DNA from: Comamonadaceae bacterium
GTDB taxonomy: Bacteria > Pseudomonadota > Gammaproteobacteria > Burkholderiales > Burkholderiaceae_C
Reading direction: 5' to 3'
Length of the DNA: 55,333 nt
NCBI GenBank assembly: GCA_947447355.1
Contig: CANFJF010000018.1
Location: 1-55,333, forward strand
Shown here: piece after piece, positions 1 to 14,824 of the stretch
Numbering within the stretch: position 1 is the stretch's first letter
Layout of the letters: each line of letters opens with the position of its first letter
Notes under the pieces: generated by a model
Database searches by the model: none
Seen by the model: only the letters and a program-made list of their open reading frames with translations
Told to the model about the DNA's origin: nothing
Program-made: the position numbers and the translations under genes

Positions 1-99
1 CCAACTTGAGTTGACGGCACTTGACTTCGCGCAACGTGCCAGTCGGCCTGACGCTATTGAACTTCTGACACCCAAAGTTAAAGCGTCAAAGCCGACGGG

Positions 100-298
100 T
101 CAATGGTGATCAGTCATCTTGAAGAGCAGGCGCAACACGTTCTCATTGATATCCACTTCCGCCGGTTGCTTGATGGCGCATGCAATCTCCTTCGCCACCT
201 CGCCACCGTGTCGACTGGAATTCCGACTTCATACTTAATGCCCACGGCTTTGGCACCGATATAACTATGACTTTGCCTTTGATGGTGCTGCTCCACAT
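100..298 (-). pseudogene. Short-chain dehydrogenase remnant (both ends kept, middle lost)
   Basis: Read on the minus strand, ATG at 298 opens MWSSTIKGKVIVI, which resembles the first beta strand of an SDR just before the TGxxxGxG motif. That motif and the rest of the Rossmann core are missing. A second frame gives GIKYEVGIPVDTVA and a third gives VAKEIACAIKQPAEVDINE, ending at TGA 102-100. These match the usual SDR C-terminus (P-D-VA-AI--A---P-VDINEI-RP). About 180 residues are absent and two frameshifts are needed, so this is not a functional gene. A GTGGA about 9 bases before the ATG and an AT-rich upstream stretch suggest it once had its own promoter. Family assignment is by motif only. 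Confidence 0.6.
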
Positions 299-463
299 AT
301 ACTAAATTCCACGATGTATATTATGTTAAGTTATGTACGAGGTTAGCTGAGCACCGGAATAAAAACGATCGCTATGCTGAAATATCAAGGACCATCAATG
401 ATGGCGGGGGTTTCCGAATATGAAACGATACCGCCGAAAGAACTTGAACAACAGGCCAAAACA

Positions 464-575
464 CCGTCGCTGCGAGCGAAGCGGCAGTCCATTGAGCCGT
501 CTTGGAGAGCGGAGCGCTGCCATAAATCGTGGCACTAGGCGGTGATGGACTGCCACGCTTCGCTCGCAGAGACGG
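464..575. repeat. Inverted repeat of the GCGAGCGAAGCG family
   Basis: Left arm 464-492 and right arm 545-575 are near-perfect reverse complements around the core CTGCGAGCGAAGCG-GGCAGTCCAT, with one mismatch and a 2-base indel. The spacer is about 52 bases. Each arm matches the first 35 bases or so of the 86-bp unit repeated in tandem at 30476-30722, so both loci belong to one dispersed family. No transposase is present. The element lies between the SDR remnant and the 3' end of the phosphotransferase gene, where the mRNA could fold into a long hairpin. Confidence 0.8.
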
Positions 576-584
576 AAATACAAA

Positions 585-1652
585 TCAGCGGGCCCTGATG
601 ATCTCGACCTGCCCCCACGCAATATCAGCTACGCGCCTATAGCGATCGCCCATAGCGACTGCATCAGCACTGGAGGCCGTACCACGTTTGACGCGGCCTC
701 GGATGCCATGAAGAATCGCCGCGAAGCGAAACATGTTGAAGGCAATGTAGAAGTCGAGGTCTGGCATCGCAGCACGACCTGTACGGCGGCAATAAGAAGC
801 AACGTAAGCGGCTTCATCAGGCAGACCTTGCGCGATGAGATTCAAACCGTGAATACCGCCCAAAATATCGGGGGGCATACGGTACATCATGGCGTTGTAG
901 GCAAAGTCAGCCAATGGGTGACCGAGCGTCGACAATTCCCAGTCGAGCACAGCCAAGACCCGCGGTTCGGTCGGATGGAAAATCATGTTGTCGGCCCGAA
1001 AATCACCGTGGGTGATAGCGGTTTCGTCATCCATTGGAATGTGTGCAGGAAGCCATTCAACCAGTTTGTCCATGGCCGGATGACGACCTGCGAGCTCATC
1101 CTGGACATACTGTTGCGACCATCGGGCAATCTGCCTTGAGACATAACCGCCGCTACGGCCAAAGTCAGCGAGCCCTATGGATTCAGCGGAAATGCTGTGT
1201 AAAGTAGCCAAAGTTGCATTCATCGCATCCAGATAATCAGCCCGTTGTGCACGAGGGACATCGGTAAAACTGGCATCCCAAAAAATACGCCCTTCAACCA
1301 TGTCCATGACAAAGAACCAACTACCAATGACAGAGTCATCAAGACAAAGCCCATGAATCTTAGGAACCGGGAATCCAACGGTTCCGAGAGCAGCCATCAC
1401 CCTCGCCTCCCGCTCAACAGCATGAGCGCCTTTTAGCAGCACACCCGGTGGTTTTTTTCGCAAAACGTAAGAACGCAACGGTGTACGAAGCCGGTAGGTC
1501 GGGTTAGATTGCCCCCCCTTGAACTGGTCCACCACCAGCGGCCCCTGAAAACCGGCTACGTTTTCCTGCATCCACCCTGTTAACGCGCGCTCGTCAATGC
1601 GGTGTAAATCGCGGACCGGTATGGTGCCACCAAAACCATCAACCTCCTTCAT
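585..1652 (-). CDS. APH-fold phosphotransferase (kinase), LvaA/ACAD10-11 kinase-like
   Basis: A 355-residue protein of the aminoglycoside phosphotransferase/choline kinase fold. The ATP-lysine region reads YVLRKKPPG (about residues 63-71), the catalytic loop is HGDFRADN (catalytic Asp about 217) and the metal-binding motif is DWE (about 237). The start is ATG 1652 because it overlaps the stop of the preceding acyl-CoA dehydrogenase as ATGA, which implies translational coupling. Bacterial relatives next to acyl-CoA dehydrogenases are often annotated as aminoglycoside phosphotransferases. In levulinate catabolism (LvaA), and in mammalian ACAD10/11, such kinases phosphorylate the 4-hydroxyl of 4-hydroxyacyl-CoA. 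That role is inferred here from context; antibiotic resistance is unlikely. Confidence 0.85.
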   Translation of the reverse strand: MKEVDGFGGTIPVRDLHRIDERALTGWMQENVAGFQGPLVVDQFKGGQSNPTYRLRTPLRSYVLRKKPPGVLLKGAHAVEREARVMAALGTVGFPVPKIHGLCLDDSVIGSWFFVMDMVEGRIFWDASFTDVPRAQRADYLDAMNATLATLHSISAESIGLADFGRSGGYVSRQIARWSQQYVQDELAGRHPAMDKLVEWLPAHIPMDDETAITHGDFRADNMIFHPTEPRVLAVLDWELSTLGHPLADFAYNAMMYRMPPDILGGIHGLNLIAQGLPDEAAYVASYCRRTGRAAMPDLDFYIAFNMFRFAAILHGIRGRVKRGTASSADAVAMGDRYRRVADIAWGQVEIIRAR

Positions 1653-2839
1653 GCGGTCTTCTTGGGCAATGCATCGCGCTTGATTTTCTTCGCAATAGAC
1701 CATTTATGAACTTCTGTTGGGCCGTCGTAAATTCGAAAAGCGCGAACTTCGCGAAAAACTTGCTCAACAATAGTGTCTCGCAAAACCCCGCTGCCACCCA
1801 TGACCTGAACGCAACGGTCTGCCACCCGAAACAGGGCATCAGACACAGCCACCTTCGCCATAGAGCTTTCGGTGGTGGCTTGAGAGCCAGCATCCAAGAC
1901 ACCGGCGCACCAATCAATCATCAAGGCCGACTGCTGCAAATCAATCAAGTTGTCAGCGAGCATGAAGCCCACGCCTTCGTGGTCCACCAGTAATTTACCA
2001 AAGGCCTTGCGAGTGGTTGCGTATTGCACGGCAATTTCATGCGCACGTGTGGTTGCACCATGCCAGCGCATGCAATGCGACAAACGTGCCGGCGAAAGGC
2101 GTATCTGGGCGTAGCGAAAACCTTCGTTGACAGCACCCAAAACTTGACTTTCTGGCACCCGAAGTTGGTCGAAAAGAACTTGTGCATGGCCACCCGGCAT
2201 GGAACTGTCCATCGTGTCGAGTACACGCTCAATGCGTACGGCCGGGTGCGGCAAGTCAAACAAAAACATCGTGGCCTGGGCCTGTGCACCGCTACCGGTA
2301 CGCGCCATGACAATGCCGACGGATGCGCCCTTGGTTCCAGTGATGAACATCTTGCGGCCGTTGATCACCCAGTCGTTCCCGTCTTGTAACGCCGTTGTTT
2401 GCAGCATGGAGGGATCAGACCCTGCACCGCCTTCAGAGGCTGGCTCTGTCATGAAAAATGCGGAGCGAGCCTCACCACGAATCAGCGGCTCGAGAAAATG
2501 CGCTTTCTGCGCGTCAGTGGCGATCTTGCCCAACAAAAACATATTGCCCTCATCCGGGGCCATGGTGTTGACCGCCACCGGACCTAGTGGCGACAGACCC
2601 GAGCGCTTCAGAACGGCTGCCGTTTCTAGCTGACTGAGGTGCTCGCCATCGGGCAGGATGTGCGGCGTCATCAAGCCGGCTGCGCGAGCTTTGGCGCGCA
2701 TTTCTGCCACTAAATCTTCTGTGGGGCCATGTGCCGTGCAACGGGCATCACGCTCATAAGGGATGACTGATTCGCGAACAAAAGCTTCAACTCGATCCGC
2801 CAAAATTCGGCTACGTTCTGAAGGGCTGGGCGTGTGCAT
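1649..2839 (-). CDS. Acyl-CoA dehydrogenase, ACAD10/11-like
   Basis: A flavoprotein of about 396 residues with the acyl-CoA dehydrogenase layout: an N-terminal helical domain, a middle beta domain with FFMTEP and the GSDPS flavin/substrate segment, and a C-terminal helical domain with the AFGKLLVDHEGV and QVMGGSG segments. Near the C-terminus it reads YDGPTEVHK. Many family members have a catalytic Glu in YEGT; here the aligned residue is Asp, as in the ACAD11-type DGP-EVH signature. The start is ATG 2839, preceded by AAGGACA. It lies 52 bases after the SDR gene and overlaps the kinase by 4 bases. The likely substrate is a medium or long branched or hydroxylated acyl-CoA, which is inference. 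Confidence 0.88.
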   Translation of the reverse strand: MHTPSPSERSRILADRVEAFVRESVIPYERDARCTAHGPTEDLVAEMRAKARAAGLMTPHILPDGEHLSQLETAAVLKRSGLSPLGPVAVNTMAPDEGNMFLLGKIATDAQKAHFLEPLIRGEARSAFFMTEPASEGGAGSDPSMLQTTALQDGNDWVINGRKMFITGTKGASVGIVMARTGSGAQAQATMFLFDLPHPAVRIERVLDTMDSSMPGGHAQVLFDQLRVPESQVLGAVNEGFRYAQIRLSPARLSHCMRWHGATTRAHEIAVQYATTRKAFGKLLVDHEGVGFMLADNLIDLQQSALMIDWCAGVLDAGSQATTESSMAKVAVSDALFRVADRCVQVMGGSGVLRDTIVEQVFREVRAFRIYDGPTEVHKWSIAKKIKRDALPKKTA

Positions 2840-2891
2840 GGAGTGTCCTTGTGTAGAAAATGAATGAATTTTGAAGGGTGAATAAAGCCGC

Positions 2892-3647
2892 TTAAAGGCC
2901 GCTGACAAGATGTCCGCCATCAACCGCTAAGACTGAACCCGTCATGTAGCGGGAGGCATCCGAAGCCAACAAAAGCATCGGCCCATCAAGGTCTGATAAC
3001 TGACCCAGTCGACGTTGCGGTATCCGCTTGATCAAGGCTTTGCCGGCGTCCGTGCCCCAAAAGTCTTGATTGAGTTCGGTCTCGACGTAGCCGGGTGCAA
3101 TGGCATTGACGCGAATGCCGTAACGCGCCCATTCAAGAGCCAATGTTTTGGTGAGTTGAATCACACCAGCCTTGGACACCGCATATGAAACCACTCCACC
3201 CGCTTGCCGAAGACCCAAAATTGACGCCACATTGACGATGCAACCATGGCCCCGATCACGCATGCCTGCCGCCAAGGTCTGCGCCATAAAAAACATGGCT
3301 TTGAGGTTGGTGTCCAGAACCGTGTCCCAGTCAACTTCGCTGTGCGATAAAGCAGCATGCTCCCGGACAATGCCTGCATTGTTGATCAGAATATCCACCG
3401 GACCAGCAGCAGCGACAAGGTCCGCACGGGATGCACTGTTGGTGACATCGAGGGCGATAGTCTTCACGTCGTGTCCAAAAGACCGAATAGTTTCAGCCAC
3501 CGCATTGAGTGCCTCTAGACGTCTAGCGACCAAGACCACTTTGGCACCATGGCTGGCCAATAGTTGTGCAAAATGTGCCCCCAAACCGCTGGAAGCACCA
3601 GTGATCAGCGCACACTTTCCAAGCAGTTGAGTCGAACCGGAAATCAT
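2892..3647 (-). CDS. SDR-family oxidoreductase
   Basis: A 251-residue classical short-chain dehydrogenase. TGASSGLG (residues 17-24) binds the dinucleotide, NNAG follows the fourth strand, and the catalytic residues are Ser in VASILG and YAVSK. The C-terminal SRYMTGSVLAVDGGHL is typical of FabG-like enzymes. AAGGATCAAC precedes ATG 3647, a good ribosome site. It is the first gene of an operon with the acyl-CoA dehydrogenase and kinase, and divergent from a GntR regulator. It probably oxidises or reduces a hydroxy/keto acyl intermediate of that pathway. The substrate cannot be read from the sequence. Confidence 0.88.
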   Translation of the reverse strand: MISGSTQLLGKCALITGASSGLGAHFAQLLASHGAKVVLVARRLEALNAVAETIRSFGHDVKTIALDVTNSASRADLVAAAGPVDILINNAGIVREHAALSHSEVDWDTVLDTNLKAMFFMAQTLAAGMRDRGHGCIVNVASILGLRQAGGVVSYAVSKAGVIQLTKTLALEWARYGIRVNAIAPGYVETELNQDFWGTDAGKALIKRIPQRRLGQLSDLDGPMLLLASDASRYMTGSVLAVDGGHLVSGL

Positions 3648-3680
3648 GTTGATCCTTGATAATCAGTTTGCATAAAAAAT

Positions 3681-3693
3681 ATTGTAGGACAAT
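3681..3693. promoter_or_regulatory. Putative GntR operator over the SDR-operon promoter
   Basis: ATTGT-AGG-ACAAT is a perfect 5-3-5 inverted repeat in the 56-base space between the divergent SDR operon and GntR gene. The minus strand of 3681-3686 reads TACAAT, a good -10 element for the SDR operon. FCD-type GntR proteins commonly bind short TTGT-N3-ACAA-like palindromes, so this is the natural candidate for repression of the operon and possibly autoregulation. Confidence 0.6.
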
Positions 3694-3703
3694 TTAATCA
3701 ACA

Positions 3704-4465
3704 ATGACAGCGCCTTATGGGCTGACAATATGCATGATGAAGACTGCCGTCACATCTCTCAAAGCAAACGCCAAACCAGTGCGTGAAATTATTCAAGACG
3801 TTAGCGATTTGGGGCGAGATGCCATGAGCGCGTCCGACATCGTTTTTTTTGGCATCGTCAACGGCCTGGAAATACAGAAGTTTGTTCCGGCGCAGCGCTT
3901 AGTAGAAAGCGATCTGGCGGAACAGTTTGCTGTCGGCCGCAACTCGGTGCGTGAAGCGCTGCAACGCTTAGCCGCTGAAGGCATTGTGGAGCTGCATCGG
4001 CACAAAGGCGCGGCGATTCGCACACTGTCACTGCAAGAAACGCTTGACGTCCTGGACGTGGCTGAACGCATGACGGGTTTGTTGGCGCGTTCAGCAGCTC
4101 GTGGTGCAGCGAACTCCGGACTTAAACCGATCTTGAAAGAGAGTCTGAAGACCTTGAAGTTTGCGGATGCTGGAAATGATGCCGCAGCCTTCACCAGCGC
4201 GCGCCGCCGTTTCTATCGCTGCTTACTGGACATGGGCGGGAACCTTGAACTGAAACGCTTATTTCCGACGATTCAAATGCCGATCGTCTATGCGCAGCAC
4301 CGGCTGCCAGCTCTGCAAAAGCTGCGTCTGCGCGACTATCGGCAAATCGCTGCGGCGGTCCGTGCAGGGCATGAAGACGAAGCCGATGCAGCCGGTTCAG
4401 CACACGTGCAACACGTCAGGCACGAGATAGCTTCACAGGCCACCGGCATCGATACAGCCTTTTAA
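3704..4465 (+). CDS. GntR-family regulator, FadR/FCD subfamily
   Basis: Up to 253 residues. The winged helix-turn-helix (FVPAQRLVESDLAEQF then GRNSVREALQRLAAEGIVEL) lies at about residues 58-105 and is followed by an all-helical FCD ligand-binding domain. The reading frame opens at ATG 3704, only 10 bases from the putative operator. ATG 3824 (after GGGGCGAGATGCC) is a plausible shorter start, and the N-terminal 40 residues look poorly conserved. It is divergent from the SDR/acyl-CoA dehydrogenase/kinase operon, whose pathway intermediate is the likely ligand. Its stop is 4 bases from the end of the convergent universal stress gene. Confidence 0.87.
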   Translation: MTAPYGLTICMMKTAVTSLKANAKPVREIIQDVSDLGRDAMSASDIVFFGIVNGLEIQKFVPAQRLVESDLAEQFAVGRNSVREALQRLAAEGIVELHRHKGAAIRTLSLQETLDVLDVAERMTGLLARSAARGAANSGLKPILKESLKTLKFADAGNDAAAFTSARRRFYRCLLDMGGNLELKRLFPTIQMPIVYAQHRLPALQKLRLRDYRQIAAAVRAGHEDEADAAGSAHVQHVRHEIASQATGIDTAF

Positions 4466-4469
4466 CGTC

Positions 4470-4937
4470 TCAAGCTGGCGACTCATCCTTGCCGCGGACG
4501 ACAAGAACGGGCACGGGTGCGTGGCGAATAATCTGTTCAGCATCGCTGCCGAGCAGCACCCGCTTAACGCCGCGTCGTCCATGCGAGCCGAGCACGATCA
4601 AATCAGCATGGCTTGTGCGGGCGTGATCGGCCACATGTTCGAAAACACGGCCTGGGCCTTCCGCGATCAACACGCATTCGACCTGCAGGCCGTGAGCCAG
4701 CACCTTCTCGCCTTCTTTCGCCAGCAAATTTTCGCCGGCGGAGCGCATCATAGGAACCAACTGCTGAACATAGTAGGTCGCGGACTCGAAACCAGAGACA
4801 TGACTGAGATCATCCATCACATGCAGCAGGCTGATTTTGGCGCCACTGAAAACAGCCAGTCGAATCGCTTCGTCAAGTGCTTTGTCAGATGTTGGACTGC
4901 CATCAATCGGTACAAGAATATGACGAAAACGAGTCAT
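4470..4937 (-). CDS. Universal stress protein, UspA family
   Basis: A 155-residue single Usp domain. It begins RHILVPIDGSPTSDKAL and ends with the ATP-binding signature G-2x-G-9x-G-S (GSHGRRGVKRVLLGSDAEQI, about 128-147). Its C-terminal half closely resembles the Usp at 8859-9323, so the two are probably duplicates. ATG 4937 overlaps the stop of the upstream Pat-like acyltransferase (ATGA), so they are translated together. Family members bind ATP and support survival in growth arrest or low oxygen. The exact role here is unknown. Confidence 0.92.
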   Translation of the reverse strand: MTRFRHILVPIDGSPTSDKALDEAIRLAVFSGAKISLLHVMDDLSHVSGFESATYYVQQLVPMMRSAGENLLAKEGEKVLAHGLQVECVLIAEGPGRVFEHVADHARTSHADLIVLGSHGRRGVKRVLLGSDAEQIIRHAPVPVLVVRGKDESPA

Positions 4938-7636
4938 GTAACGTCCAAAGTTGGTGGATTAAGAACAAGCCGCATCGACAGAATGCCGGGCGAATTACCG
5001 GGAGTGACAGAAAAGCCAACGTGACGGGCTAGTGACGCAACATTCAAATTTTCTGGCAAACATTGACCCACCACTTCTACAGTGCCGCGCGCGCGCAAAT
5101 AGCGCAGGAGCTTGTCCAGCAACAAACGGCCGAGGCCCCTGCCCTGCCAACGTGTGGCCACTTGAATCGCAAACTCAGCTTGAAAATTATCGGGATCACA
5201 AACGGCACGCACTTCGCCCAACATGGCGTCTTCACCCTGGTGTGTCTTTCCCATAGCGATGAACGTCATCTCTCGGTCGTAATCGATCTGGCTGTAGCGC
5301 GTCAACTCCGAATGCGGAACTTCGCGCCTAGCCATGAAAAAACGCAAACGCATATCGGCGGGTGTGGCATCAGCGTAAAAATGCTGGAGTCGACCACCAT
5401 CCTCAGGCCGTATCGGGCGTAACAAAACTTCTCTTTCAGCCAAGTTGACACGCTCTTCCAGCGCAGCAGGGTAAGGCCGAATTGCCAAGTGTGACCCATC
5501 GTGCGCAGTGCTTGCTTTGATCCGCACTCGCGAATCCACAGACAACACGCCATCTGCGTCGATCAGCAAGGGGTTGATGTCGAGTTCGGCCACTTGCGCC
5601 AGATCGCAGGCCAACAAGGACACCTTCAACAAGGTATCGAGCAAGGCGGTTTGGTTGGCGGCTGGTTTGCCGCGGTAACCGCCGAGCAGCTTGGCCAGTT
5701 GACTGCGCTGCACCAGATCGTTGGCGAGGCTGGTATTGAGCGGCGGCAAGGCCACTGCATGGTTAGTATGCAATTCAACGGCCGTGCCGCCCTCGCCCAA
5801 TAGCAACACCGGACCAAATAGCGGGTCGGTGTTGATGCCCACAATCAGTTCATGCGCGCCTGGCCGTTGCGCCATCGCCTGCACCGTGAAACCTTGGTGC
5901 ACTGCATCGGATCGTAGCTTATTGACTTGCGCTTTCATGACCTCAGCCGCTGCACGCACTTCGGCCGCAGACGCCAAACCAAGTGCCACACCACCAACGT
6001 CTGACTTGTGGATGATTTGCGATGAGATGAACTTCAGTGCCACCGGGTAACCCATCGAATCTGCCGCCAACACAGCTGCATCGGCATCTGCCGTTTTGCG
6101 TGTGTTCACCACAGGAATACCGTAGGCCGCTAACAAGGCTTGCGAATCTGCGTCGCCTAACCATTCACGGCCGTCTTGCAAGGCTTGCTGAATCAAACGT
6201 TGAGCAGCTGAACGGTCAGGTAAAAGGTCGGGTACGGACGCGGTGGTGAGTTGCTGCAGCGCCAACTGATTCCGGCTGAAGTTGACCAATTGCAGCCAAG
6301 CGGCAGTGGCGCGTTCAGGAGTGTTGTAGTTAGCAATGCCGGCAGCCCCTGTCGCCTGCCTCGCAGCCGCCACCACCGCGCCACCGAGCCAGCAGGCCAA
6401 CACCGCTTTGCTCGCAGATTGCATCAGTGGTAAGCAGGCTGATGCAATCTGTGTGGCCGAGACGATCGCGGTCGGCGCATGCATAAAAAGCACACCATCG
6501 ACTTCCGGCGCAGCCACTAACACCCGCAGTGCTGCTTGGTAGCGGCTTACCGGCGCGTCTCCAATGATGTCTACCGGATTCCCCTTCGACCAAGTTGCGG
6601 GCAGACACTCGTCTAAAGCGGCCAGCGTGGCAGGGCTCAACTCAGCCAGGGTGCCGCCGCCCAGCGACAGGGAGTCGGCCGCCAGCACACCTGCACCGCC
6701 GCCATTGGTCACCACGGCCAACCGCTCACCCTTCAGTGGCCAAGTGTGTTGCATGTTGGACAGTGTTTCTGCTGCGTCAAACAAAGCTTCTAGCGTGTCT
6801 ACGCGCAACATGCCGGCACGCTGTACAGCCGCATCAAAAACAACGTCAGATCCAGCCAGTGCACCGGTGTGGGATGCCGCAGCCTTCGCACCCGCTGGCG
6901 CTCGACCCGCCTTGACCAAAATGACTGGTTTGTTGCGGGCAGCTGCACGCGCTGCCGACATGAACTTGCGCGCTGTTTTGACCGACTCAACGTACATCAA
7001 TATTGCCCGTGTGTTCGGGTCACTGCCGAGGTAATCCAGCATGTCGCCAAAGTCCACGTCAGCGCTGTCGCCTAAAGAGACAAAGTGCGAAAAACCGATG
7101 CCAAGGCTGTTCGCCCAATCCAGCATGGCAGTGGCCAGCGCGCCAGACTGCGTGACAAATGCGAGTTGACCTGGCAATGCATTGCCAGGCGAAAAACTCG
7201 CATTCAACAATGCGCCAGGAACCAGTGCGCCAATGCAGTTTGGCCCCAAAACGCGCAGCAAATGCGGCCGAGCTGAATCCAACATGGCTTGTTCATGGGT
7301 GATGCCGCTGGCCGCCATGGCTTTCAGTCCTGCACTCAACACAATGGCTGCGCGCGTGCCCTTGCGCCCCAGCGCCGACAGCAGTTCTGGGACGCTGACG
7401 GCGGGTGTGCATATAACCGCCAAGTCCGGCGCGAAAGGCAGAGCCTCCACATCAGCCCAAGCGGGTTCACCATCAACCTGCGCATGCTTGGCATTGACAG
7501 CCCAGATAGGGCCCTTGAATCCACCCAACTTGAGGTTGTGCAAGACCACCGAGCCCAAACTGCCCTCGCGGTCAGAGGCACCGATAAGAGCGACTGAATT
7601 TGGCTGAAACATGGCTTCAAGGTGGCGTACGGTCAT
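4934..7636 (-). CDS. Pat-like protein: ADP-forming acyl-CoA synthetase plus GNAT acetyltransferase
   Basis: 900 residues with the Pat/PatZ domain order: CoA-binding Rossmann domain (SVALIGAS, about 14-21), succinyl-CoA-ligase-like domains, an ATP-grasp domain (YPVALKFISSQIIHKSDVGG) and a C-terminal GNAT domain (about 735-890) with RWQGRGLGRLLL as the acetyl-CoA loop. SHTGALAG places a His at residue 256, where ADP-forming acetyl-CoA synthetases carry their phosphohistidine. The ligase half may therefore be active, which is inference. Relatives acetylate and inactivate AMP-forming acetyl-CoA synthetase. The coupled Usp gene and nearby stress genes suggest control of carbon flow under stress. 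It is divergent from the DksA/TraR-like gene. Confidence 0.9.
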   Translation of the reverse strand: MTVRHLEAMFQPNSVALIGASDREGSLGSVVLHNLKLGGFKGPIWAVNAKHAQVDGEPAWADVEALPFAPDLAVICTPAVSVPELLSALGRKGTRAAIVLSAGLKAMAASGITHEQAMLDSARPHLLRVLGPNCIGALVPGALLNASFSPGNALPGQLAFVTQSGALATAMLDWANSLGIGFSHFVSLGDSADVDFGDMLDYLGSDPNTRAILMYVESVKTARKFMSAARAAARNKPVILVKAGRAPAGAKAAASHTGALAGSDVVFDAAVQRAGMLRVDTLEALFDAAETLSNMQHTWPLKGERLAVVTNGGGAGVLAADSLSLGGGTLAELSPATLAALDECLPATWSKGNPVDIIGDAPVSRYQAALRVLVAAPEVDGVLFMHAPTAIVSATQIASACLPLMQSASKAVLACWLGGAVVAAARQATGAAGIANYNTPERATAAWLQLVNFSRNQLALQQLTTASVPDLLPDRSAAQRLIQQALQDGREWLGDADSQALLAAYGIPVVNTRKTADADAAVLAADSMGYPVALKFISSQIIHKSDVGGVALGLASAAEVRAAAEVMKAQVNKLRSDAVHQGFTVQAMAQRPGAHELIVGINTDPLFGPVLLLGEGGTAVELHTNHAVALPPLNTSLANDLVQRSQLAKLLGGYRGKPAANQTALLDTLLKVSLLACDLAQVAELDINPLLIDADGVLSVDSRVRIKASTAHDGSHLAIRPYPAALEERVNLAEREVLLRPIRPEDGGRLQHFYADATPADMRLRFFMARREVPHSELTRYSQIDYDREMTFIAMGKTHQGEDAMLGEVRAVCDPDNFQAEFAIQVATRWQGRGLGRLLLDKLLRYLRARGTVEVVGQCLPENLNVASLARHVGFSVTPGNSPGILSMRLVLNPPTLDVT

Positions 7637-7700
7637 GGCGTGGCTGTGCTTTGTTCAGCGTGTGATGTTAGTCAGCTTAGCGCGATGGCGTCGCCAGAGT

Positions 7701-7714
7701 TTGCGCCAGATCAA
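7701..7714. promoter_or_regulatory. Weak FNR-like site between the pat-like and dksA-like genes
   Basis: TTGCG-CCAG-ATCAA matches 8 of the 10 defined positions of TTGAT-N4-ATCAA. It lies about 75 bases before the start of the DksA/TraR-like gene. The spacing to an A-rich -10-like stretch near 7737-7742 is compatible with class II activation, but that -10 is poor. It is noted because a perfect site occurs about 1.1 kb downstream. Confidence 0.3.
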
Positions 7715-7782
7715 TATCTAAATGCATCGCTTGCTCAAAAATGAAAAGGAAGTTTGATCAGCACAACCAGGGGGATTTCAAT

Positions 7783-8172
7783 ATGGACACCTATGACATC
7801 AAAAATGCATCGCATATTGCTCAGTTGCTGAGCCAGCGAGAGCAGGAAATACGGACTGAATTACGTGCTCTGGACAACATCCCTAGCGCTGTTGACGGTA
7901 TGGCGGGGCACGAGGTTCTAGACTTCAAAGACGTTGCCGTTGAGGAAACATTGGCTCGACTTGACCGCGCCAATGCGTACCGACTGGCGTCTGAGTTGTC
8001 TCAGGTGATGAGCGCCCAACGCCGGATGGCTGAGCATCACTATGGCAACTGTTTGGATTGTGGTGATCTTATCGATATGCGCCGATTGCTGGCCCTGCCC
8101 GCTTCGTCTTATTGCGCGGCATGCCAGACGATGCATGAACACGAAAAATTCCCACGCCATCAAGCGCTATGA
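7783..8172 (+). CDS. TraR/DksA-family zinc-finger protein
   Basis: 129 residues. A helical N-terminal part is followed by a four-cysteine zinc finger (C90-x2-C93 and C111-x2-C114) typical of the DksA/TraR C-terminus. The start chosen is ATG 7783 because AGGGGG lies about 8 bases upstream. An in-frame ATG at 7741 lacks this. DksA binds the RNA polymerase secondary channel and works with ppGpp. This protein is shorter and lacks a clear DxxDxA coiled-coil tip, so it may act differently. Its place beside hsp20 and usp genes fits a stress role. Confidence 0.85.
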   Translation: MDTYDIKNASHIAQLLSQREQEIRTELRALDNIPSAVDGMAGHEVLDFKDVAVEETLARLDRANAYRLASELSQVMSAQRRMAEHHYGNCLDCGDLIDMRRLLALPASSYCAACQTMHEHEKFPRHQAL

Positions 8173-8310
8173 ATGGCGTCGTGAGGGGGTATTGGATTGC
8201 CTTTGCTTGAGATCATTCGGTCTTAAATCATCCCTGCAAGGGCATTCACGTTGTGGAGGCTTTTGCATTTAACGCGCAATGAACCAACCCCACCCCTCTG
8301 GAGAATAGAC

Positions 8311-8739
8311 ATGAGCAACCTACGCGTCACTGACCCTACTTTTGGCGACTCTATGGAGTCAGCCTTCCGCCGCTTTCTGGCCCCCGTCTCTTTTGACGCT
8401 GACATGCCCGAACTGCAAATGAAGCTAGACGTCTCTGAAAAAGAAAATGTTTACGAGATCAAGGCTGACCTGCCGGGCGTGAAAAAAGAAGATATCAGCA
8501 TCCGTATTGATGGCAACGTTGTTCAGATTGACGCCGAAATTAAACGCGACAAAGAAACCCGTGGTAACGGCCATAAAGTGCTGCGCAGTGAACGTTATCG
8601 AGGCAGTATTTCACGCAGCTTCAGCTTGGCGCAAGACGTTGATGAAGCCAAGTCACAAGCCCGCTATGCCGATGGGGTACTGACACTTGAACTCCCTAAA
8701 AAAACAACCACGACGGCCAAAAAAATACAGGTTCAGTAG
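8311..8739 (+). CDS. Small heat-shock protein Hsp20 (alpha-crystallin family)
   Basis: 142 residues with an alpha-crystallin domain from about 33 to 135: KLDVSEKENVYEIKADLPGV at its start, then SERYRGSISRSFSLAQDVD, and the LTLELPKK strand near the end. ATG 8311 follows CTGGAGAATAGAC, while an upstream in-frame ATG (8251) has no ribosome site. Members are ATP-independent holdases that keep unfolding proteins soluble. It is followed by a 9-bp-stem hairpin and then the FNR-type usp promoter, so it appears to be the end of its own short transcript. Confidence 0.93.
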   Translation: MSNLRVTDPTFGDSMESAFRRFLAPVSFDADMPELQMKLDVSEKENVYEIKADLPGVKKEDISIRIDGNVVQIDAEIKRDKETRGNGHKVLRSERYRGSISRSFSLAQDVDEAKSQARYADGVLTLELPKKTTTTAKKIQVQ

Positions 8740-8744
8740 TGAGT

Positions 8745-8768
8745 ACAAATCCGTTCATTCGGATTTGT
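8745..8768 (+). terminator. Hairpin after hsp20
   Basis: ACAAATCCG (8745-8753), loop TTCATT, CGGATTTGT (8760-8768): a perfect 9-bp stem starting 5 bases after the hsp20 stop. No good U-tract follows, so it may be a weak terminator or a 3'-end stabiliser. It separates hsp20 from the next promoter. Confidence 0.5.
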
Positions 8769-8792
8769 CCTACATAAATTCAAGACGCCTTG

Positions 8793-8834
8793 TTGATACA
8801 GATCAAGGCGGTCTGCCTCGACGCCGTTGATAAT
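8793..8834 (+). promoter_or_regulatory. FNR/ANR-type class II promoter of the usp pair
   Basis: TTGAT-ACAG-ATCAA (8793-8806) is a perfect match to the FNR consensus. GATAAT at 8829-8834 is a strong -10 that predicts a start near 8841. This puts the box centre at about -41.5, the class II activating position. The first usp gene starts at 8859 after AAGGAG. The geometry strongly suggests oxygen-limited activation by an FNR-like regulator. Confidence 0.8.
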
Positions 8835-8858
8835 GAAAACTAATAAGAAGGAGCTAAT

Positions 8859-9323
8859 ATGTACCTACGAATTCTGGTCCCGGTTGATGGGAGCGAGACT
8901 GCAACCAAGGCCATGATTGCCGCGCTACAGCTGGCCCGCGACTCGGGTGGGCAAGTTCATCTTGTGCACGTTGTGGAAGGCATGACACCGCTGGCTGCAG
9001 ATCCGTATGGTGCCTACTCAGGCGAAGTGATTGAAATCATGCGCCAAAGCGGCAGCAAAATTCTGGAAGACGCCTTGCAGGTTGCCAAGGCTGCGGGGGT
9101 CCCCGCCGACACGGAACTGTTTGATAACTTTGGGGAACGGCTCGCCGAGGTGGTGGCAGATGCGGCCACGCGTTTCAAGGCCGATTTGATTGTGGTGGGG
9201 ACGCATGGTCGTCGCGGTTTAGGCCGGATGATGCTGGGCAGCGGTGCTGAGCAAATTATTCGTCTTGCACCGGTACCGGTTTTGGTGATTCGTCACAGCG
9301 AGAAAAAAGAAGCTTCAGAGTGA
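8859..9323 (+). CDS. Universal stress protein, UspA family
   Basis: A 154-residue single Usp domain starting YLRILVPVDGSETATKA, with the ATP-binding signature GTHGRRGLGRMMLGSGAEQI (about 126-145). AAGGAG precedes ATG 8859. Transcription is predicted from the FNR-type promoter 18 bases upstream, and a second usp gene follows after 32 bases, so the two form an operon. It closely resembles the Usp at 4470-4937. ANR-controlled Usp proteins in Pseudomonas support anaerobic survival, and a similar role is inferred here. Confidence 0.93.
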   Translation: MYLRILVPVDGSETATKAMIAALQLARDSGGQVHLVHVVEGMTPLAADPYGAYSGEVIEIMRQSGSKILEDALQVAKAAGVPADTELFDNFGERLAEVVADAATRFKADLIVVGTHGRRGLGRMMLGSGAEQIIRLAPVPVLVIRHSEKKEASE

Positions 9324-9355
9324 CAACTGCTTTTTGAATAACAAGGAAGATAAAA

Positions 9356-9778
9356 ATGAAAATTCTTTTCCCGGCTGATGGCAGCGAATTCACCAAAAAG
9401 GCCCTCGCCTTTCTCGTCACACATGAGACCCTGTGCGGCCCTGAAGACGAGTTGGTCGTGCTCAATGTACAGCCGCCCATTCCGCATCGTGTTCAGCGCA
9501 TGGTTGGCGCAACCACAGTTCGTGACTATCACAACGATGAAGCCACCAAAGTCCTCAAGTCTATTGAGCGATTTTTGACCAAACACAAATTGCATTTCCG
9601 CGCGAGTTGGGTGGCCGGCTCTGCAGCGACTGAGATCCTCAAGGCCGCGACCAAGGAAAAAGCGCACATGATTGTCATGGGTACTCATGGGCATGGATTG
9701 ATCGGCCGGGCTGTCATGGGCAGCGTCGCCCAACGCGTATTGGCTGAAGCCAATATTCCGGTCTTGCTGGTGAAGTAA
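9356..9778 (+). CDS. Universal stress protein, UspA family (second of pair)
   Basis: A 140-residue Usp domain: MKILFPADGSEFTKKAL at the start and GTHGHGLIGRAVMGS (about 112-126) as the nucleotide-binding signature. It is more diverged than the other two Usp proteins here. AAGGAAG lies about 7 bases before ATG 9356. It lies 32 bases after the previous usp with no terminator between, so it should share the FNR-type promoter. Its stop faces the convergent ElaB/YqjD-like gene. Confidence 0.92.
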   Translation: MKILFPADGSEFTKKALAFLVTHETLCGPEDELVVLNVQPPIPHRVQRMVGATTVRDYHNDEATKVLKSIERFLTKHKLHFRASWVAGSAATEILKAATKEKAHMIVMGTHGHGLIGRAVMGSVAQRVLAEANIPVLLVK

Positions 9779-9800
9779 ACACGCCAAGAGATGCGCCGCC

Positions 9801-10115
9801 CTACCCGCGGCGTTCAAGCAATGGACTGAGCATCTTTTTAAGGCTGTGCTCAAGTACCAATGCCAGCAAAGCCCCCACACCCGCAGCCATTGCTGAAGCC
9901 TTCATCGGTTCCCGCAATACAAAGTGCGTGAGCTGATCTTCTACACGCTGGTAGAAGCGACCAGCATCGCGTTGAAAAGGCGGCGCAGTATGGCGCACCT
10001 CATCTTTTGCTGCCTCGACGGCAGACTGCAAAACTTCTTCATTCAACGGTCTGTGACTGACTTTGCCATGATGTGAACCATTCGATTGATGCATGCCGTG
10101 TGGATCTGGACTCAT
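9801..10115 (-). CDS. ElaB/YqjD-like (DUF883-type) membrane-anchored protein
   Basis: 104 residues. A charged, Gln/Glu-rich helical N-terminal part is followed by a C-terminal membrane helix (AAGVGALLALVLEHSL) and a basic tail, the arrangement of ElaB/YqjD proteins. E. coli relatives sit in the inner membrane and bind ribosomes in stationary phase. The start is ATG 10115, with AGAGGG about 6 bases upstream. The frame stays open further upstream, but that sequence looks non-coding. Assignment is by architecture rather than a strong motif. Confidence 0.7.
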   Translation of the reverse strand: MSPDPHGMHQSNGSHHGKVSHRPLNEEVLQSAVEAAKDEVRHTAPPFQRDAGRFYQRVEDQLTHFVLREPMKASAMAAGVGALLALVLEHSLKKMLSPLLERRG

Positions 10116-10355
10116 GATGTTGCCCTCTGAATTGTGTAAAAAAAAGAAGTTAATCTTCGAAGCGAATCTTCCTTGTGAGCTATGAATCCAAGACAGGGTC
10201 GGATCTGTCCCACGTTCAGCGACGACTTCACTGACACCGTTTGGTGTTGACCAACTCTCTGTGCGCATCAAAGCATCGCCTATCGTGAAGCTTGGGTTGC
10301 TAGGGTTCTATTGTTTGGATCCCTGAAGCTCAGTCCATGATCAACAGGAATCCAG

Positions 10356-12503
10356 ATGCCTCCACTTCAGCGTAAAACCAGCGATAAAAATTCATCTCCA
10401 GCAAACGCTCAGTTAGACACGATCAACACACTGACAACCCAACAGGGCGTGCCGATTCCGGACAATCACAACTCACTGAAAGGCGGACAGTGCGGCCCAA
10501 CGCTGATGGAGGACTTTATCCTTCGCGACAAACTCACACACTTTGACCACGAGCGAATTCCAGAGCGCGTGGTCCACGCACGGGGTGCAGCGGCGCATGG
10601 TTTTTTCAAGCTCTACAAACCGTTGTCACAGTACACCAGTGCAGTTTTTCTGCAAGATCCAACGATAGAGACGCCGGTATTCGTCCGCTTTTCAACGGCG
10701 ATTGGTTCGCGTGGCTCGGCCGATACGGTGCGCGATGTGCGCGGCTTTGCCGTCAAGTTTTACACGCAACAAGGCAATTACGATCTTGTCGGCAACAACA
10801 TGCCTGTGTACTTCGTACAAGACGCCATCAAGTTCCCGGACTTGGTGCATGCGCTCAAGCCAGAGCCGGTCCAAGAACTGCCACAGGCCTCATCGGCACA
10901 CGACACTTTTTGGGACTTTGTCTCGCTGATGCCTGAGTCCACCCACATGTTGATGTGGCTGATGTCCGACAGAGCCATTCCGCGCAGCTACCGAATGATG
11001 GAAGGATTTGGCGTGCACACCTTTCGGTTGGTCAATCCGCACGGCCAGTCTTGCTATGTGAAGTTCCACTGGAAACCCAAACTCGGCCTGCACAGCATGG
11101 CGTGGGACGAAGCACAAAAAGTGGCTGGTCAAGACCCGGATTTTCATCGGCGCGACCTTTGGGATGCCATTGAGTGCGGCCATTTTCCAGAATGGGAGTT
11201 GGGCGTGCAGCTGATAGACACGGGCAAAGAGGCAGCGCTGGGTATCGATTTGCTGGACGCGACCAAACTGGTTCCAGAAGAACTGGTGCCTATTTTGCCG
11301 ATCGGGCGAATGGTTCTGAATCGAAACCCAGACAATTTTTTCACTGAAACTGAGCAGGTTGCCTTCAACCCCGGTCATTTAGTACCTGGCATCGATTTCT
11401 CAAATGATCCGCTGTTGCAGGGCCGTTTATTTTCATACGCTGACAGTCAGCTGTCGCGCTTGGGCGGCCCAAATGCGCATGCATTGCCCATCAATCAGGC
11501 TGTTTGTCCTGTGCACCATTTTCAGCGGGACGGCATGCATCAGGCAAAACGTCATGCAGGGCGTGTGGCTTACGAACCGAACATGCTCGCCACCGGTGCT
11601 GAGTTTCGGTTAGATGGCGTAACGCAAGGTTTTCAATCTTCCCCAGACATGCTGGAGTCAGTCAAATTACGCCAGAAAAGCACTTCATTTGAGGATCATT
11701 TTTCGCAGGCGACGTTGTTCTGGAACAGTCAGAGCCAAGCCGAAAAAGACCATATTGTTGCGGCTTTCCGCTTTGATCTGTCGAACGTTGAAACCATGGA
11801 AATACGTCAGCGCATGGTGGACAACCTAGCGCATGTCGACATGAAACTGGCCAGCCGCGTCGCAACTCAACTTGGCATTGATCTACCCAACCCTGCCTCA
11901 GCAGCTGGACGGCTAGGTTATCGACAGCACAAGGCAGAGAGCCGCCTCCAAGATGCGCCGTCGTTGAGCATGGTCGGTCGCTATAAGCCTGACATCAGCA
12001 CTCGCAAAGTAGCGGTGCTGGTCGCAGGTGGTATGGACATGATCTCAGTCAGGCGCGTCATGCAGGAGCTGAGCGATGAGGGCTTGCAATGCAAAGTGGT
12101 TGCGCCGCATCTTGGACACATTGGCACCGCCAGCGGACGCACGTTGACAGTGGATTTCACCTTCAGCAACACATCGTCGGTGATGTTTGACGCAGTGCTG
12201 ATTCCTGGTGGCATCGCCAGTACCGACGAATTGTGTCGGAATGGATCTGCTGTTCACTTTGCGCTTGAAGCCTACAAACACTGCAAACCTATCTGCGCCA
12301 TCAATGAAGGTGTGCGTTTGCTCAGCAGCTTGGGCTTCAGCCTGAGCCAGCATAAAAACACTGCGCTGACGGTACCGACGCCCGGCGTGGTGATCGCCGA
12401 CAGCCAGCAAGCCATTGAGGGGCAGATCAGTCAGGAGTTCATGGCTGCGATGCGCCAGCACCGGCACTGGGACCGCGTCAATCTGGATTCAGTGCCGGCT
12501 TGA
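10356..12503 (+). CDS. katE: Large-subunit catalase HPII with C-terminal DJ-1/PfpI-like domain
   Basis: 715 residues, the length of clade 2 large catalases. The N-terminal extension is followed by RVVHARG with catalytic His 74, the RFSTAIGSRGSADTVRD active-site strand, and SYADSQLSRLG carrying the proximal haem Tyr. From about residue 540 a flavodoxin-like domain follows (VAVLVAGGMDMISV, then VLIPGG), as in E. coli KatE. It breaks down hydrogen peroxide to water and oxygen in the cytoplasm. CAGGAATCCAG precedes ATG 10356. It closes the stress-gene block. Confidence 0.96.
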   Translation: MPPLQRKTSDKNSSPANAQLDTINTLTTQQGVPIPDNHNSLKGGQCGPTLMEDFILRDKLTHFDHERIPERVVHARGAAAHGFFKLYKPLSQYTSAVFLQDPTIETPVFVRFSTAIGSRGSADTVRDVRGFAVKFYTQQGNYDLVGNNMPVYFVQDAIKFPDLVHALKPEPVQELPQASSAHDTFWDFVSLMPESTHMLMWLMSDRAIPRSYRMMEGFGVHTFRLVNPHGQSCYVKFHWKPKLGLHSMAWDEAQKVAGQDPDFHRRDLWDAIECGHFPEWELGVQLIDTGKEAALGIDLLDATKLVPEELVPILPIGRMVLNRNPDNFFTETEQVAFNPGHLVPGIDFSNDPLLQGRLFSYADSQLSRLGGPNAHALPINQAVCPVHHFQRDGMHQAKRHAGRVAYEPNMLATGAEFRLDGVTQGFQSSPDMLESVKLRQKSTSFEDHFSQATLFWNSQSQAEKDHIVAAFRFDLSNVETMEIRQRMVDNLAHVDMKLASRVATQLGIDLPNPASAAGRLGYRQHKAESRLQDAPSLSMVGRYKPDISTRKVAVLVAGGMDMISVRRVMQELSDEGLQCKVVAPHLGHIGTASGRTLTVDFTFSNTSSVMFDAVLIPGGIASTDELCRNGSAVHFALEAYKHCKPICAINEGVRLLSSLGFSLSQHKNTALTVPTPGVVIADSQQAIEGQISQEFMAAMRQHRHWDRVNLDSVPA

Positions 12504-12522
12504 CGGTCGGTTAAGGCACTGT

Positions 12523-13479
12523 TCAGTGTGCGTGTCCCCACAGCAAAAAAGCGTCGCGACCCTCAGCCACCAAGCTCACGGGGGCACCTACTGGCAGAAG
12601 CACTTTGGTCGGCACGTGGCCAAACGGCAAGCTCGTCAAGACGCGTGCTTTGACTTGCGACTGCAGCCATTGGACGACGGTTGCCAGCTTGAAGCCTTTG
12701 TCATGCGGTACCAATTTGAAGTGAGTGAACTGGCCAAAAATAATGACTTTTTGTTGAGCCAACACGCCCGCATGCAACAACTGCGTGAGCATGCGCTCGA
12801 TGCGGTAAGGGTGCTCATGCACATCTTCCAAAAACAAAATTCCGCCCTTGATTTGCGGTAGAAAGGGCGTGCCCACCAGCGACGACAAAACCGACAAATT
12901 GCCGCCCCACAGCACGGCATTGTTGATTTTAAAATCAGTCGGTTTCGCGTTCGCTGAAGGCGCCGCTGATATTGCCGCAGCCGTTGCTATAGGTTTGGGC
13001 AACTGCCAACCAGCGCCCTCACCTTGCTCACTGACCAAGTCGTCAAAGCACGCTTCCATGATGTCGTCAGGCGTGCCGTCGATCCCAAAGTCTTCACCGA
13101 GCGCCGGACCTGCCCAACTGATGGCACCGGTCTTAGCCAGCAAGGCCGATTGAAACGCGGTGAAATCACTCAGGCCAACAAACTGCGTTCCCTTGGTGAC
13201 CGCCTTTGCCACCGCCTTGTAGTTGATGCGGGGCAAGATACGCGTCAAACCATAGCCACCACGCGAAATCAGCGCAATGTCTGCGCCACTGGCAGCAGCC
13301 CGGTGAATGGCCGCCAGGCGAGTTTCGTCATCGCCGGCAAAGCGTTGATGGCTGGCCAGAGCGGACTCGTCTACTTCAACCTCATGACCCAAGGTTTTCA
13401 AGCGGGCGATGCCGCGTTTGAAGCTGGCCTTGTCGCGCACAGCGCTAGAGGGGGAATAGATGTAGATATGTTTTTTCAC
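12523..13479 (-). CDS. LD-carboxypeptidase, peptidase family S66 (LdcA-like)
   Basis: About 318 residues. The S66 nucleophile motif is VGLSDFT, the Glu of the triad lies in ILFLEDVHEHPYRIERML, and the C-terminal PFGHVPTKVLLPVG supplies the His. RGGYGLTRILP is the other conserved family block. These cytoplasmic enzymes remove the terminal D-Ala from murein tetrapeptides during cell-wall recycling. GTG 13479 is chosen because the conserved HIYIYSPSSAV begins directly after it. Longer in-frame starts would run into tadA. There is no strong Shine-Dalgarno sequence. It lies downstream of the tadA fusion in the same direction. Confidence 0.85.
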   Translation of the reverse strand: MKKHIYIYSPSSAVRDKASFKRGIARLKTLGHEVEVDESALASHQRFAGDDETRLAAIHRAAASGADIALISRGGYGLTRILPRINYKAVAKAVTKGTQFVGLSDFTAFQSALLAKTGAISWAGPALGEDFGIDGTPDDIMEACFDDLVSEQGEGAGWQLPKPIATAAAISAAPSANAKPTDFKINNAVLWGGNLSVLSSLVGTPFLPQIKGGILFLEDVHEHPYRIERMLTQLLHAGVLAQQKVIIFGQFTHFKLVPHDKGFKLATVVQWLQSQVKARVLTSLPFGHVPTKVLLPVGAPVSLVAEGRDAFLLWGHAH

Positions 13480-13534
13480 GAGGACAATTATCCCATTCGC
13501 TGCTTGACGAAATGTCCAGAGTAGAGCGCAGCGA

Positions 13535-14824
13535 TTAGCGGACGCAGAAGAACCGAACCGCCTCGGCGGCAATGTCTTCGTCTTGATTTGACTGAATAAT
13601 TTTGTTCCGCAAGTGTTGTATCAGCGGTACTCCAAACACCGGCGCTGTGTCACCAAACGGCAACATGGTTTGCCCAGTCCATTGATCGGACCAAAATTCT
13701 TGCATCTGCCGGTCGAACGCCGTGCCATCATTGTTCGGGTTTTTAGTCGCCATGAGCGAAAAAGCCCGCAGTGCGGCCCGGTGCCCGCGGTCAACAAATG
13801 GCGCGTTGTAAGCGGGGCAATCTTTTTCACCGGGAGCCAACAAAGGGTTCACCTTCAGCAAGCCGCTATAACGATGCGGCGCAGCCATCGGCAGGGTGAG
13901 ACCCAGCGAGTCGCCGACTTCCATCACCAGCACCACATTCGTCAATTCAAGCTGTTCAACCAGTTCGAGCAGCGTCTGACGATGGAAACTGAAATGATGA
14001 AAACTGTCTTTTTTCGGCTTGTCGCTTTTGCCAAAGCCAATCAAGTCAGGGACGACCACACGATGGCCTGCGGCGAGAAAAACCGGCATCATCTTGCGGT
14101 AGAGATAGCCCCAGCTCTGGTTGCCGTGGAGGCAAAGAAAAGTCAGCACCGGCACCCTGCTTTCTCCGGCATGCTGGTCCAAATAATGCATCCGCAGACC
14201 CGACAACGATGGCAAGTCGCTGATGTAATTTGGCCGCCACGGGAAGCTCAGCAAGCCCTCAAATGCAGCATCTGGCGTGCGCAACGCGAAGTCTTGCAAT
14301 GGATGGTTGAGACGTGCTTCTTCTCTAAGCATTGCGCGCCTAGCGCTAAAAAATGTCTGCAGTAGCGCAGCACTTTCTTCGGCCATGACACCACCCTGAA
14401 TGGCAGTCTGGTGATTGATCCGCTCTTCTGTGAAGAGGTTGAGAACAGAACCCGCTGCACCCGTCTTGGGCTCTGTCGCACCAAACACCACTCTTTTGAG
14501 CCGGGACTGCAGCATCGCGCCACTGCACATGGCACAAGGCTCAAGCGTGACAAACAGCTCGCATTCATCCAGTCGGTAATTGCCCAGCGCCTTGGCAGCA
14601 GCACGCAAGGCGACTATTTCGGCATGGGCCGTCGGGTCATGCGCCTCAATCGGTGAGTTGCGTCCTGTTGCAATGATCTGCCCGTCTTTCACCACCACCG
14701 CACCAACGGGGACCTCGCCTGCGGCCATGGCTGCACGCGCCTCAGACAAAGCGGCATGCATCATCTCGTTGTCATGCGGGTTCGTCGCAGGCATCATGAG
14801 CTGGGCTTGAGGCGAATCATCCAT
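13535..14824 (-). CDS. tadA: tRNA adenosine(34) deaminase TadA fused to a degenerate alpha/beta hydrolase
   Basis: 429 residues, while TadA alone is about 160. Residues 20-165 are a complete deaminase: HAE (67-69) and PCAMC (96-100) hold the zinc and catalytic Glu for A34-to-inosine editing of tRNA-Arg. Residues 195-429 resemble a haloalkane-dehalogenase-type hydrolase (LHGNQSWGYLYRKM, then VVPDLIGFGKSDKP). The nucleophile elbow, usually QDWG, reads MEVG (301-304), and the C-terminus lacks the catalytic-His segment. The hydrolase half is probably inactive. An alternative start, ATG 14797, overlaps the upstream paiB-like stop as ATGA. Confidence 0.88.
   Translation of the reverse strand: MDDSPQAQLMMPATNPHDNEMMHAALSEARAAMAAGEVPVGAVVVKDGQIIATGRNSPIEAHDPTAHAEIVALRAAAKALGNYRLDECELFVTLEPCAMCSGAMLQSRLKRVVFGATEPKTGAAGSVLNLFTEERINHQTAIQGGVMAEESAALLQTFFSARRAMLREEARLNHPLQDFALRTPDAAFEGLLSFPWRPNYISDLPSLSGLRMHYLDQHAGESRVPVLTFLCLHGNQSWGYLYRKMMPVFLAAGHRVVVPDLIGFGKSDKPKKDSFHHFSFHRQTLLELVEQLELTNVVLVMEVGDSLGLTLPMAAPHRYSGLLKVNPLLAPGEKDCPAYNAPFVDRGHRAALRAFSLMATKNPNNDGTAFDRQMQEFWSDQWTGQTMLPFGDTAPVFGVPLIQHLRNKIIQSNQDEDIAAEAVRFFCVR

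Follow-up and report, generated by a model that had tools for sequence, protein, structure and literature searches.

The 55,333-nucleotide stretch examined here (the window) comprises the entire contig C18 (CANFJF010000018.1) in the draft genome of a Comamonadaceae bacterium (3.95 Mb, 93.8% complete); sequence 5' of position 1 lies outside the view. On its minus strand, positions 585–3647 form one operon of three genes, encoding a short-chain dehydrogenase/reductase (SDR), after a 52-base gap an acyl-CoA dehydrogenase (ACAD) homologue, and then an APH-fold kinase. We estimate a probability of about 0.7 that this operon turns 4-oxo- or 4-hydroxyacyl-CoA into a normal β-oxidation intermediate through phosphorylation and expulsion of the phosphate. 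Because the last two enzymes keep the active-site residues that have been tested in ACAD11, the operon probably channels 4-hydroxy or 4-oxo acids into fatty-acid oxidation. In the proposed scheme a 4-oxoacyl-CoA would be reduced by the SDR at the expense of NADPH and phosphorylated on its 4-hydroxyl by the kinase; the ACAD homologue, using FAD without net oxidation as in ACAD10/11, would then eliminate the phosphate, leaving a 2-enoyl-CoA. A ligase or CoA-transferase with its gene elsewhere in the genome would provide the acyl-CoA, such genes being close by in some relatives. We infer the reactions, their direction, the 4-position, the use of NADPH and control by a GntR regulator. An initial annotation, made from the DNA letters alone, had placed the same three genes at these positions, and the features it read from them are directly visible: an ATGA overlap between ACAD and kinase, HGDFRADN and DWE (within LDWELS) in the kinase, and an Asp-type end of the ACAD, which closes with RIYDGPTEVHK and places D372 in the catalytic column. 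Pfam matches agree with these assignments (APH at 171 bits for the kinase, Acyl-CoA_dh domains, adh_short/adh_short_C2, and GntR plus FCD for the adjoining regulator).

The ACAD active site speaks for this reading. For mouse ACAD11, the 4-phosphate is modelled as held by R626, H634 and R637 on a helix (HCMR motif), replacement of any of these three by Ala or Leu is described as most disruptive to the activity of the ACAD domain, and D753 is given as the catalytic base of an enzyme type (ACAD10/11) that uses FAD without net oxidation (PMC12440821). R247, H255 and R258 (SHCMR) and D372 of the window ACAD occupy these four columns, and ACAD11 R631 is likewise kept. The full signature is present in all 80 relatives examined, in 120/120 best database proteins and in 6/6 plasmid copies found by tblastn. 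A proline to which a wider pocket in ACAD10/11 is attributed (human ACAD11 Pro463; PMC11342911) is also kept in 80/80 relatives, at mouse column 462, the one-residue offset being deduced from human Pro463. These relatives (L027–L106) are the best 80 of 571 from genome contigs and are 72–95% identical to the window ACAD, the closest among named records coming from Comamonadaceae metagenome-assembled genomes (95%). They were fetched with six search peptides, one of which contains HCMR; this peptide occurs in 15 of the 80 (in three as the sole one of the six) and is missing from the other 65. Retrieval bias was checked with ACADs found without the HCMR peptide, which also keep the signature (120/120, 6/6 and 5/5), the last five being the non-own ACADs from a search of 200 genomes of the order.

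Among the other ACADs of the host, all four residues occur together in only one of 17, encoded on contig C9. Behind these 17 stand 30 non-window matches, which gave 19 non-window loci; a locus with an internal stop and a protein covering two matches were left out. Proteins of the ACAD10/11 type with the same signature include seven from plasmid records, and 30/30 ACAD10/11-type loci from the class, found in 25 of 229 genomes and counting that of C9. Models of the ACAD and the kinase, built from family alignments, have a mean predicted local distance difference test score (pLDDT) of 87 and 82, respectively, and in a fold search the ACAD model places 4hr3 and ACAD11 (2wbi and 8v3u) on top. Identity between the window ACAD and ACAD11 is about 33%, as against 48–58% for eight bacterial proteins of the ACAD10/11 type. 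Taken from its sequence, the window ACAD is a predicted 4-phosphoacyl-CoA phosphate-eliminating enzyme. It is very improbable that it is instead an ordinary acyl-CoA dehydrogenase, with the kinase serving another step. Database names for the family (crotonobetainyl-CoA dehydrogenase, caffeyl-CoA reductase, benzylsuccinyl-CoA dehydrogenase) and the many members that have no adjacent close kinase would fit such an enzyme, but none of the 19 NCBIfam models listed reaches its cut-off, the R626-H634-R637-D753 combination is missing in 16/17 other host ACADs (3 of the 16 have the Asp), and the clade groups with the ACAD10/11 type.

That grouping comes from a tree of 56 ACADs, comprising the window protein, 30 of the 80 relatives, nine ACAD10/11-type proteins and 16 further ACADs of the host. 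The window family forms a single clade (100/100) that is sister to the ACAD10/11 type (100/99) rather than inside it, and the other host ACADs fall outside both; the tree is midpoint-rooted, long branches meet in it (a warning of the tool), and LvaC is not included. A kinase tree of 59 sequences likewise places the window kinases in a clade of 28 (100/99); of 23 kinases of 50–54% identity from other genomes, 20 belong to another clade (98/93), one sits on the window side and two lie elsewhere. The initial annotation had proposed phylogeny as a check on its reading and clustering with families of other proven function as evidence against it; each protein has its own clade, and the ACAD stands beside the ACAD10/11 type. 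Across 200 genomes of the order, an ACAD relative at E 1e-130 or better is found in six (own included): two, again with the own genome, at 70% identity or above, and four, all of one genus, near 56%. Loci L189–L192 represent a subclade of 53–56% identity from one genus of the order, with the full signature and no kinase match within about 1.5 kb. No account of this ACAD clade was recognised among the open-licence papers listed, which is no proof of its absence from print.

The kinase points in the same direction. Its D217, N222 and R173 correspond to the catalytic D220 and N225 and the CoA-side R176 of ACAD11. The C9 kinase has the equivalents too, as do 39/39 kinase matches (E 1e-20) among the 80 loci; the kinase queries covered 585–1646 or 588–1646, two residues short at the start. 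An Arg beside the α-C Glu is also kept, published as R86 and counted by us as 84, and so not matched by number. The nearest solved kinase by sequence is 3dxp (391 bits), followed by ACAD11, and the fold search also puts 3dxp first (50% identity). This structure is Reut_A1007, a putative phosphotransferase of Ralstonia eutropha (Cupriavidus) JMP134; it is not in the kinase tree, and we assume that it belongs with the other clade, that of the 50–54% kinases. An aminoglycoside-resistance enzyme lying by chance beside catabolic genes would share the APH fold, and database names do say aminoglycoside phosphotransferase. We regard the chance of this as negligible, as the best solved relatives are 3dxp and ACAD11, the gene is linked to an SDR and an ACAD, and the five NCBIfam antibiotic-kinase models listed stay far below their cut-offs (best 36 versus 205 bits). 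Three further APH genes of the host lie on contigs C5, C111 and C92.

The window operon resembles two known systems without being either. Mammalian ACAD11 and ACAD10 share with it the kinase residues D220, N225 and R176, the ACAD residues R626, H634, R637 and D753 including the HCMR motif, and the fold matches 2wbi and 8v3u, but combine in one chain the kinase and ACAD domains that are two separate proteins in the window, and their ACADs belong to a different clade, as noted above for identity and tree position. The Pseudomonas lva operon has the same three enzyme types (LvaA kinase, LvaC ACAD, LvaD SDR), which are here matched by type only; its regulator is the sigma-54-type LvaR, in contrast to GntR/FCD and the gene order SDR-ACAD-kinase in the window. 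LvaC can be likened to the window ACAD only through its published identity of 56–62% to ACAD11/ACAD10 (PMC11342911). LvaD is reported to accept NADH or NADPH, and no lvaB was detected in the lva region of P. citronellolis according to the same source (PMC6692424). As the initial annotation had observed, the window operon has neither lvaE nor lvaB: the ATGA overlap leaves no room for lvaB between ACAD and kinase, and no lvaE-type AMP-ligase or lvaR is present among the six genes at 585–7636, an ADP-forming synthetase lying beyond the regulator. DUF6285, taken as a tentative marker of LvaB, has no match in the host genome, the true LvaB sequence not having been searched. The host has a second kinase and ACAD pair, of the ACAD10/11 type, on contig C9 (32000–50000; L107 at about 7845–15094), and the window set is therefore an additional system. 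The C9 pair is surrounded by genes for an AMP-ligase, a thiolase-like protein, a GntR regulator and an enoyl-CoA hydratase, these four named by eye.

Gene neighbourhoods were compared in the 80 relatives, with genes called by a codon-usage caller and neighbours counted from tblastn matches (kinase at least 55% and SDR at least 50% identical, same strand, within 2.5 kb; GntR at least 45%, either strand). A kinase is present in 37/80, an SDR in 31/80 and both in 29/80, so that 29 of the 31 loci with an SDR also have the kinase; a GntR gene is found in 20/80. The kinase follows the ACAD within 100 bases in 33 loci and precedes it in three, and both beta- and alphaproteobacteria have further instances of the SDR-ACAD-kinase trio. 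A Paraburkholderia fungorum plasmid contains just the GntR|SDR-ACAD-kinase unit, a Pseudosulfitobacter plasmid carries ligase-ACAD-SDR-ACAD-kinase-thiolase, and one of V. paradoxus has the SDR, an unannotated ACAD and then kinase-thiolase-PntAB; the ACAD stands alone on plasmids of Variovorax PBL-E5 and another Comamonadaceae. All 31 SDRs of at least 50% identity have the Ser-Tyr-Lys triad and an Arg pair after β2, the latter suggesting use of NADPH. Complete 3-oxoacid CoA-transferase pairs lie within 5 kb on the same strand in 5/80 relatives, with a remnant in a sixth, and in L103 and L104 the pair is placed between SDR and ACAD. Other neighbours are PntAB (7/80), AMP-ligase (7/80, three without a close kinase) and thiolase (4/80). 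A polyhydroxyalkanoate (PHA) synthase occurs in 1/80, the Variovorax locus L062, in the order AMP-ligase, SDR, PhaE-like, PhaC-like, ACAD, kinase, which suggests that the pathway passes through a hydroxyacyl-CoA that can also be polymerised. The CoA-transferase, PntAB and PHA-synthase neighbours fit hydroxyacyl-CoA chemistry. In L067 and L070 (about 6930–8000) a kinase of 43–44% identity lies directly upstream of a window-type ACAD, and the L070 ACAD has two different kinases, one on each side. An 89-residue piece of CoA-transferase subunit A sits between SDR and ACAD at L083:7726–7995 and may be another example of decay in such an operon.

Several observations weigh against a 4-hydroxyacyl-CoA route. 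No kinase of at least 55% identity lies within 2.5 kb of the ACAD in 43/80 relatives, or in 37/74 when more than 1.1 kb of DNA is required on each side. Twenty-six genomes were searched further (25 with a kinase-less ACAD locus, the other being that of L062) and all hold a kinase of at least 50%; of the 25, five hold one of at least 60% elsewhere and the best of the other 20 is at 50–55%. The lone ACADs keep the full signature, and so may depend on a kinase gene located elsewhere or obtain their substrate in another way. The window operon contains no CoA ligase or β-oxidation gene, SDR families say little about substrate, and Asp in the catalytic column is not special, since 3/16 signature-less host ACADs carry it too. 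The relatives sampled are the best 80 of 571, all at least 72% identical, and a single genome supplied the ACADs against which the sister relation was tested. Long branches separate the window clade from the ACAD10/11 type, and the substrate may therefore differ. The chemistry that the initial annotation had likened to lva and ACAD10/11 is nevertheless the reading best borne out, in agreement with the conserved residues of both enzymes and the sister clade, and is qualified by the frequent lack of an adjoining close kinase.

The same kinase and phosphate-elimination chemistry could also act on a hydroxyl placed elsewhere than at C4 of a simple acid, for example in a hydroxyacyl-CoA of branched, tertiary or ring-bearing type, the clade having evolved for a different substrate class. 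The long branch would agree with this, as would the mixed neighbours among the relatives (P450, TauD, 2-oxoacid dehydrogenase, BKACE and HMG-CoA-lyase-like genes) and the precedent of an APH-type kinase for a tertiary steroid alcohol. This 25-hydroxy steroid kinase (25-HSK) of Sterolibacterium, whose substrate is a steroid rather than a CoA ester, sets up an ATP-dependent dehydration of the alcohol, its lyase being described in the 2021 paper as unknown and without a candidate gene nearby (PMC8449060), and it is among the nearest kinase folds (9fsg, 9ft5). However, it is only about 20% identical to the window kinase in the fold alignment, and all ACAD11 residues that hold the 4-phospho group are kept; we consider this alternative unlikely.

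For the 4-oxo/4-hydroxyacyl-CoA reading, the initial annotation had suggested a route distinct from those known. The window ACAD family forms its own clade next to the proven enzymes and outside the ACAD10/11 clade, and by gene content the operon is not an lva operon; the part of that suggestion concerning the 4-hydroxyacyl-CoA substrate stays a prediction. Tentatively, and with less confidence than in the reading itself, we propose that the clade may be a second great branch of phosphate-eliminating ACADs beside ACAD10/11/LvaC in beta- and alphaproteobacteria, carried in databases under names such as crotonobetainyl-CoA dehydrogenase, accompanied by a kinase clade, an NADPH reductase and a GntR switch of its own, and acting on a class of 4-oxo/4-hydroxy acids for which such degradation is not yet known; some lone members would borrow a kinase encoded at another site. 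Few enzymes have been proven to eliminate a phosphate after its addition, a chemistry that has recently joined the reactions of fatty-acid oxidation. If the reading is true, a separate, widespread clade of bacterial enzymes sharing this active site would account for doubtfully named acyl-CoA dehydrogenases, the two enzymes would offer a compact test system for a redox-neutral flavin reaction, and the operon would provide parts for converting levulinate, gamma-lactones and 4-hydroxy acids to ordinary CoA esters or PHA monomers.

The operon appears to have its own regulator, as the initial annotation had held. A GntR/FCD gene is divergent from the SDR gene, with a start-to-start gap of 56 bases that contains ATTGTAGGACAAT (3681–3693), an ATTGT-N3-ACAAT palindrome first spotted by eye. 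In regulator-to-first-gene gaps of 21 loci (the window, L114 and 19 of the 80 relatives), TTGT-N3-ACAA occurs exactly in 11 and with at most one mismatch in 16, compared with 0.07 and 1.44 expected from dinucleotide shuffles; the other 10 gaps have no exact copy. Leaving out the window, where the motif was chosen, 10/20 gaps have it exactly, four from the closest kin and six from more distant loci including alphaproteobacteria. No further operator copy or regulon was found, the 13-mer (at most one mismatch) occurring once in the host genome, at 3681–3693. We infer from this a local GntR switch with one target, and the palindrome is its predicted operator.

Features of the operon and its surroundings are listed in Table 1.

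Table 1 Coordinates of the three-gene operon and adjoining features in the window
Feature	Position	Strand	Remarks
APH-fold kinase, LvaA/ACAD10-11-kinase-like, 355 aa	585..1652	-	catalytic D217 (HGDFRADN), N222, R173, R81; LDWELS
ACAD homologue, 396 aa	1649..2839	-	ATG 2837-2839; R247, H255, R258 (HCMR), D372; predicted 4-phosphoacyl-CoA phosphate-eliminating
ATGA, overlap of ACAD stop and kinase start	1649..1652	-	
SDR, 251 aa	2892..3647	-	Ser-Tyr-Lys triad, VARR after β2 (predicted NADPH); putative LvaD-like role
Palindrome ATTGTAGGACAAT	3681..3693	.	predicted GntR operator
GntR/FCD transcriptional regulator, 253 aa	3704..4465	+	predicted local regulator
Second-SDR remnant and its 3' flank	10..298	-	most of gene gone, frame change; intact in L027-L030

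The decayed SDR that the initial annotation took for a lost fourth member of the operon is a real remnant of a gene that is intact in four close relatives (L027–L030), where it lies downstream of the kinase and is 36–38% identical to the first SDR. Window positions 10–251 share about 70% DNA identity (E 1e-32) with the 3' end of the second SDR of L027 (10521–11267, downstream of the kinase) and the stretch that follows it, and 306–337 correspond to the DNA upstream of that gene (97%, E 7e-10); 261–290 match its first bases weakly (E 0.03). The two protein pieces of the remnant are in different frames. L031 has no intact second SDR and has parts of the remnant in common with the window. Between remnant and kinase lies a short repeat with 20-base inverted arms (464–483/556–575). 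With 40 of 119 candidate stretches scored, the host genome gives at least 145 matches to this repeat (window 440–590), frequently as tandem copies and close to the ends of contigs.

Past the GntR gene lie a universal stress protein and then an ADP-forming acyl-CoA synthetase fused to a GNAT domain (4934–7636). As a 4-hydroxybutyrate-CoA ligase the latter was rejected (460 bits versus a cut-off of 1300), and such a synthetase lies within 2.5 kb of the ACAD in only 3/80 relatives, all close kin. In three close relatives, the synthetase and a stress gene still adjoin the operon. Inspection of 4470–9323 by eye added a second universal stress protein and what look like a DksA/TraR-type protein and an Hsp20 beside the synthetase and stress cluster.

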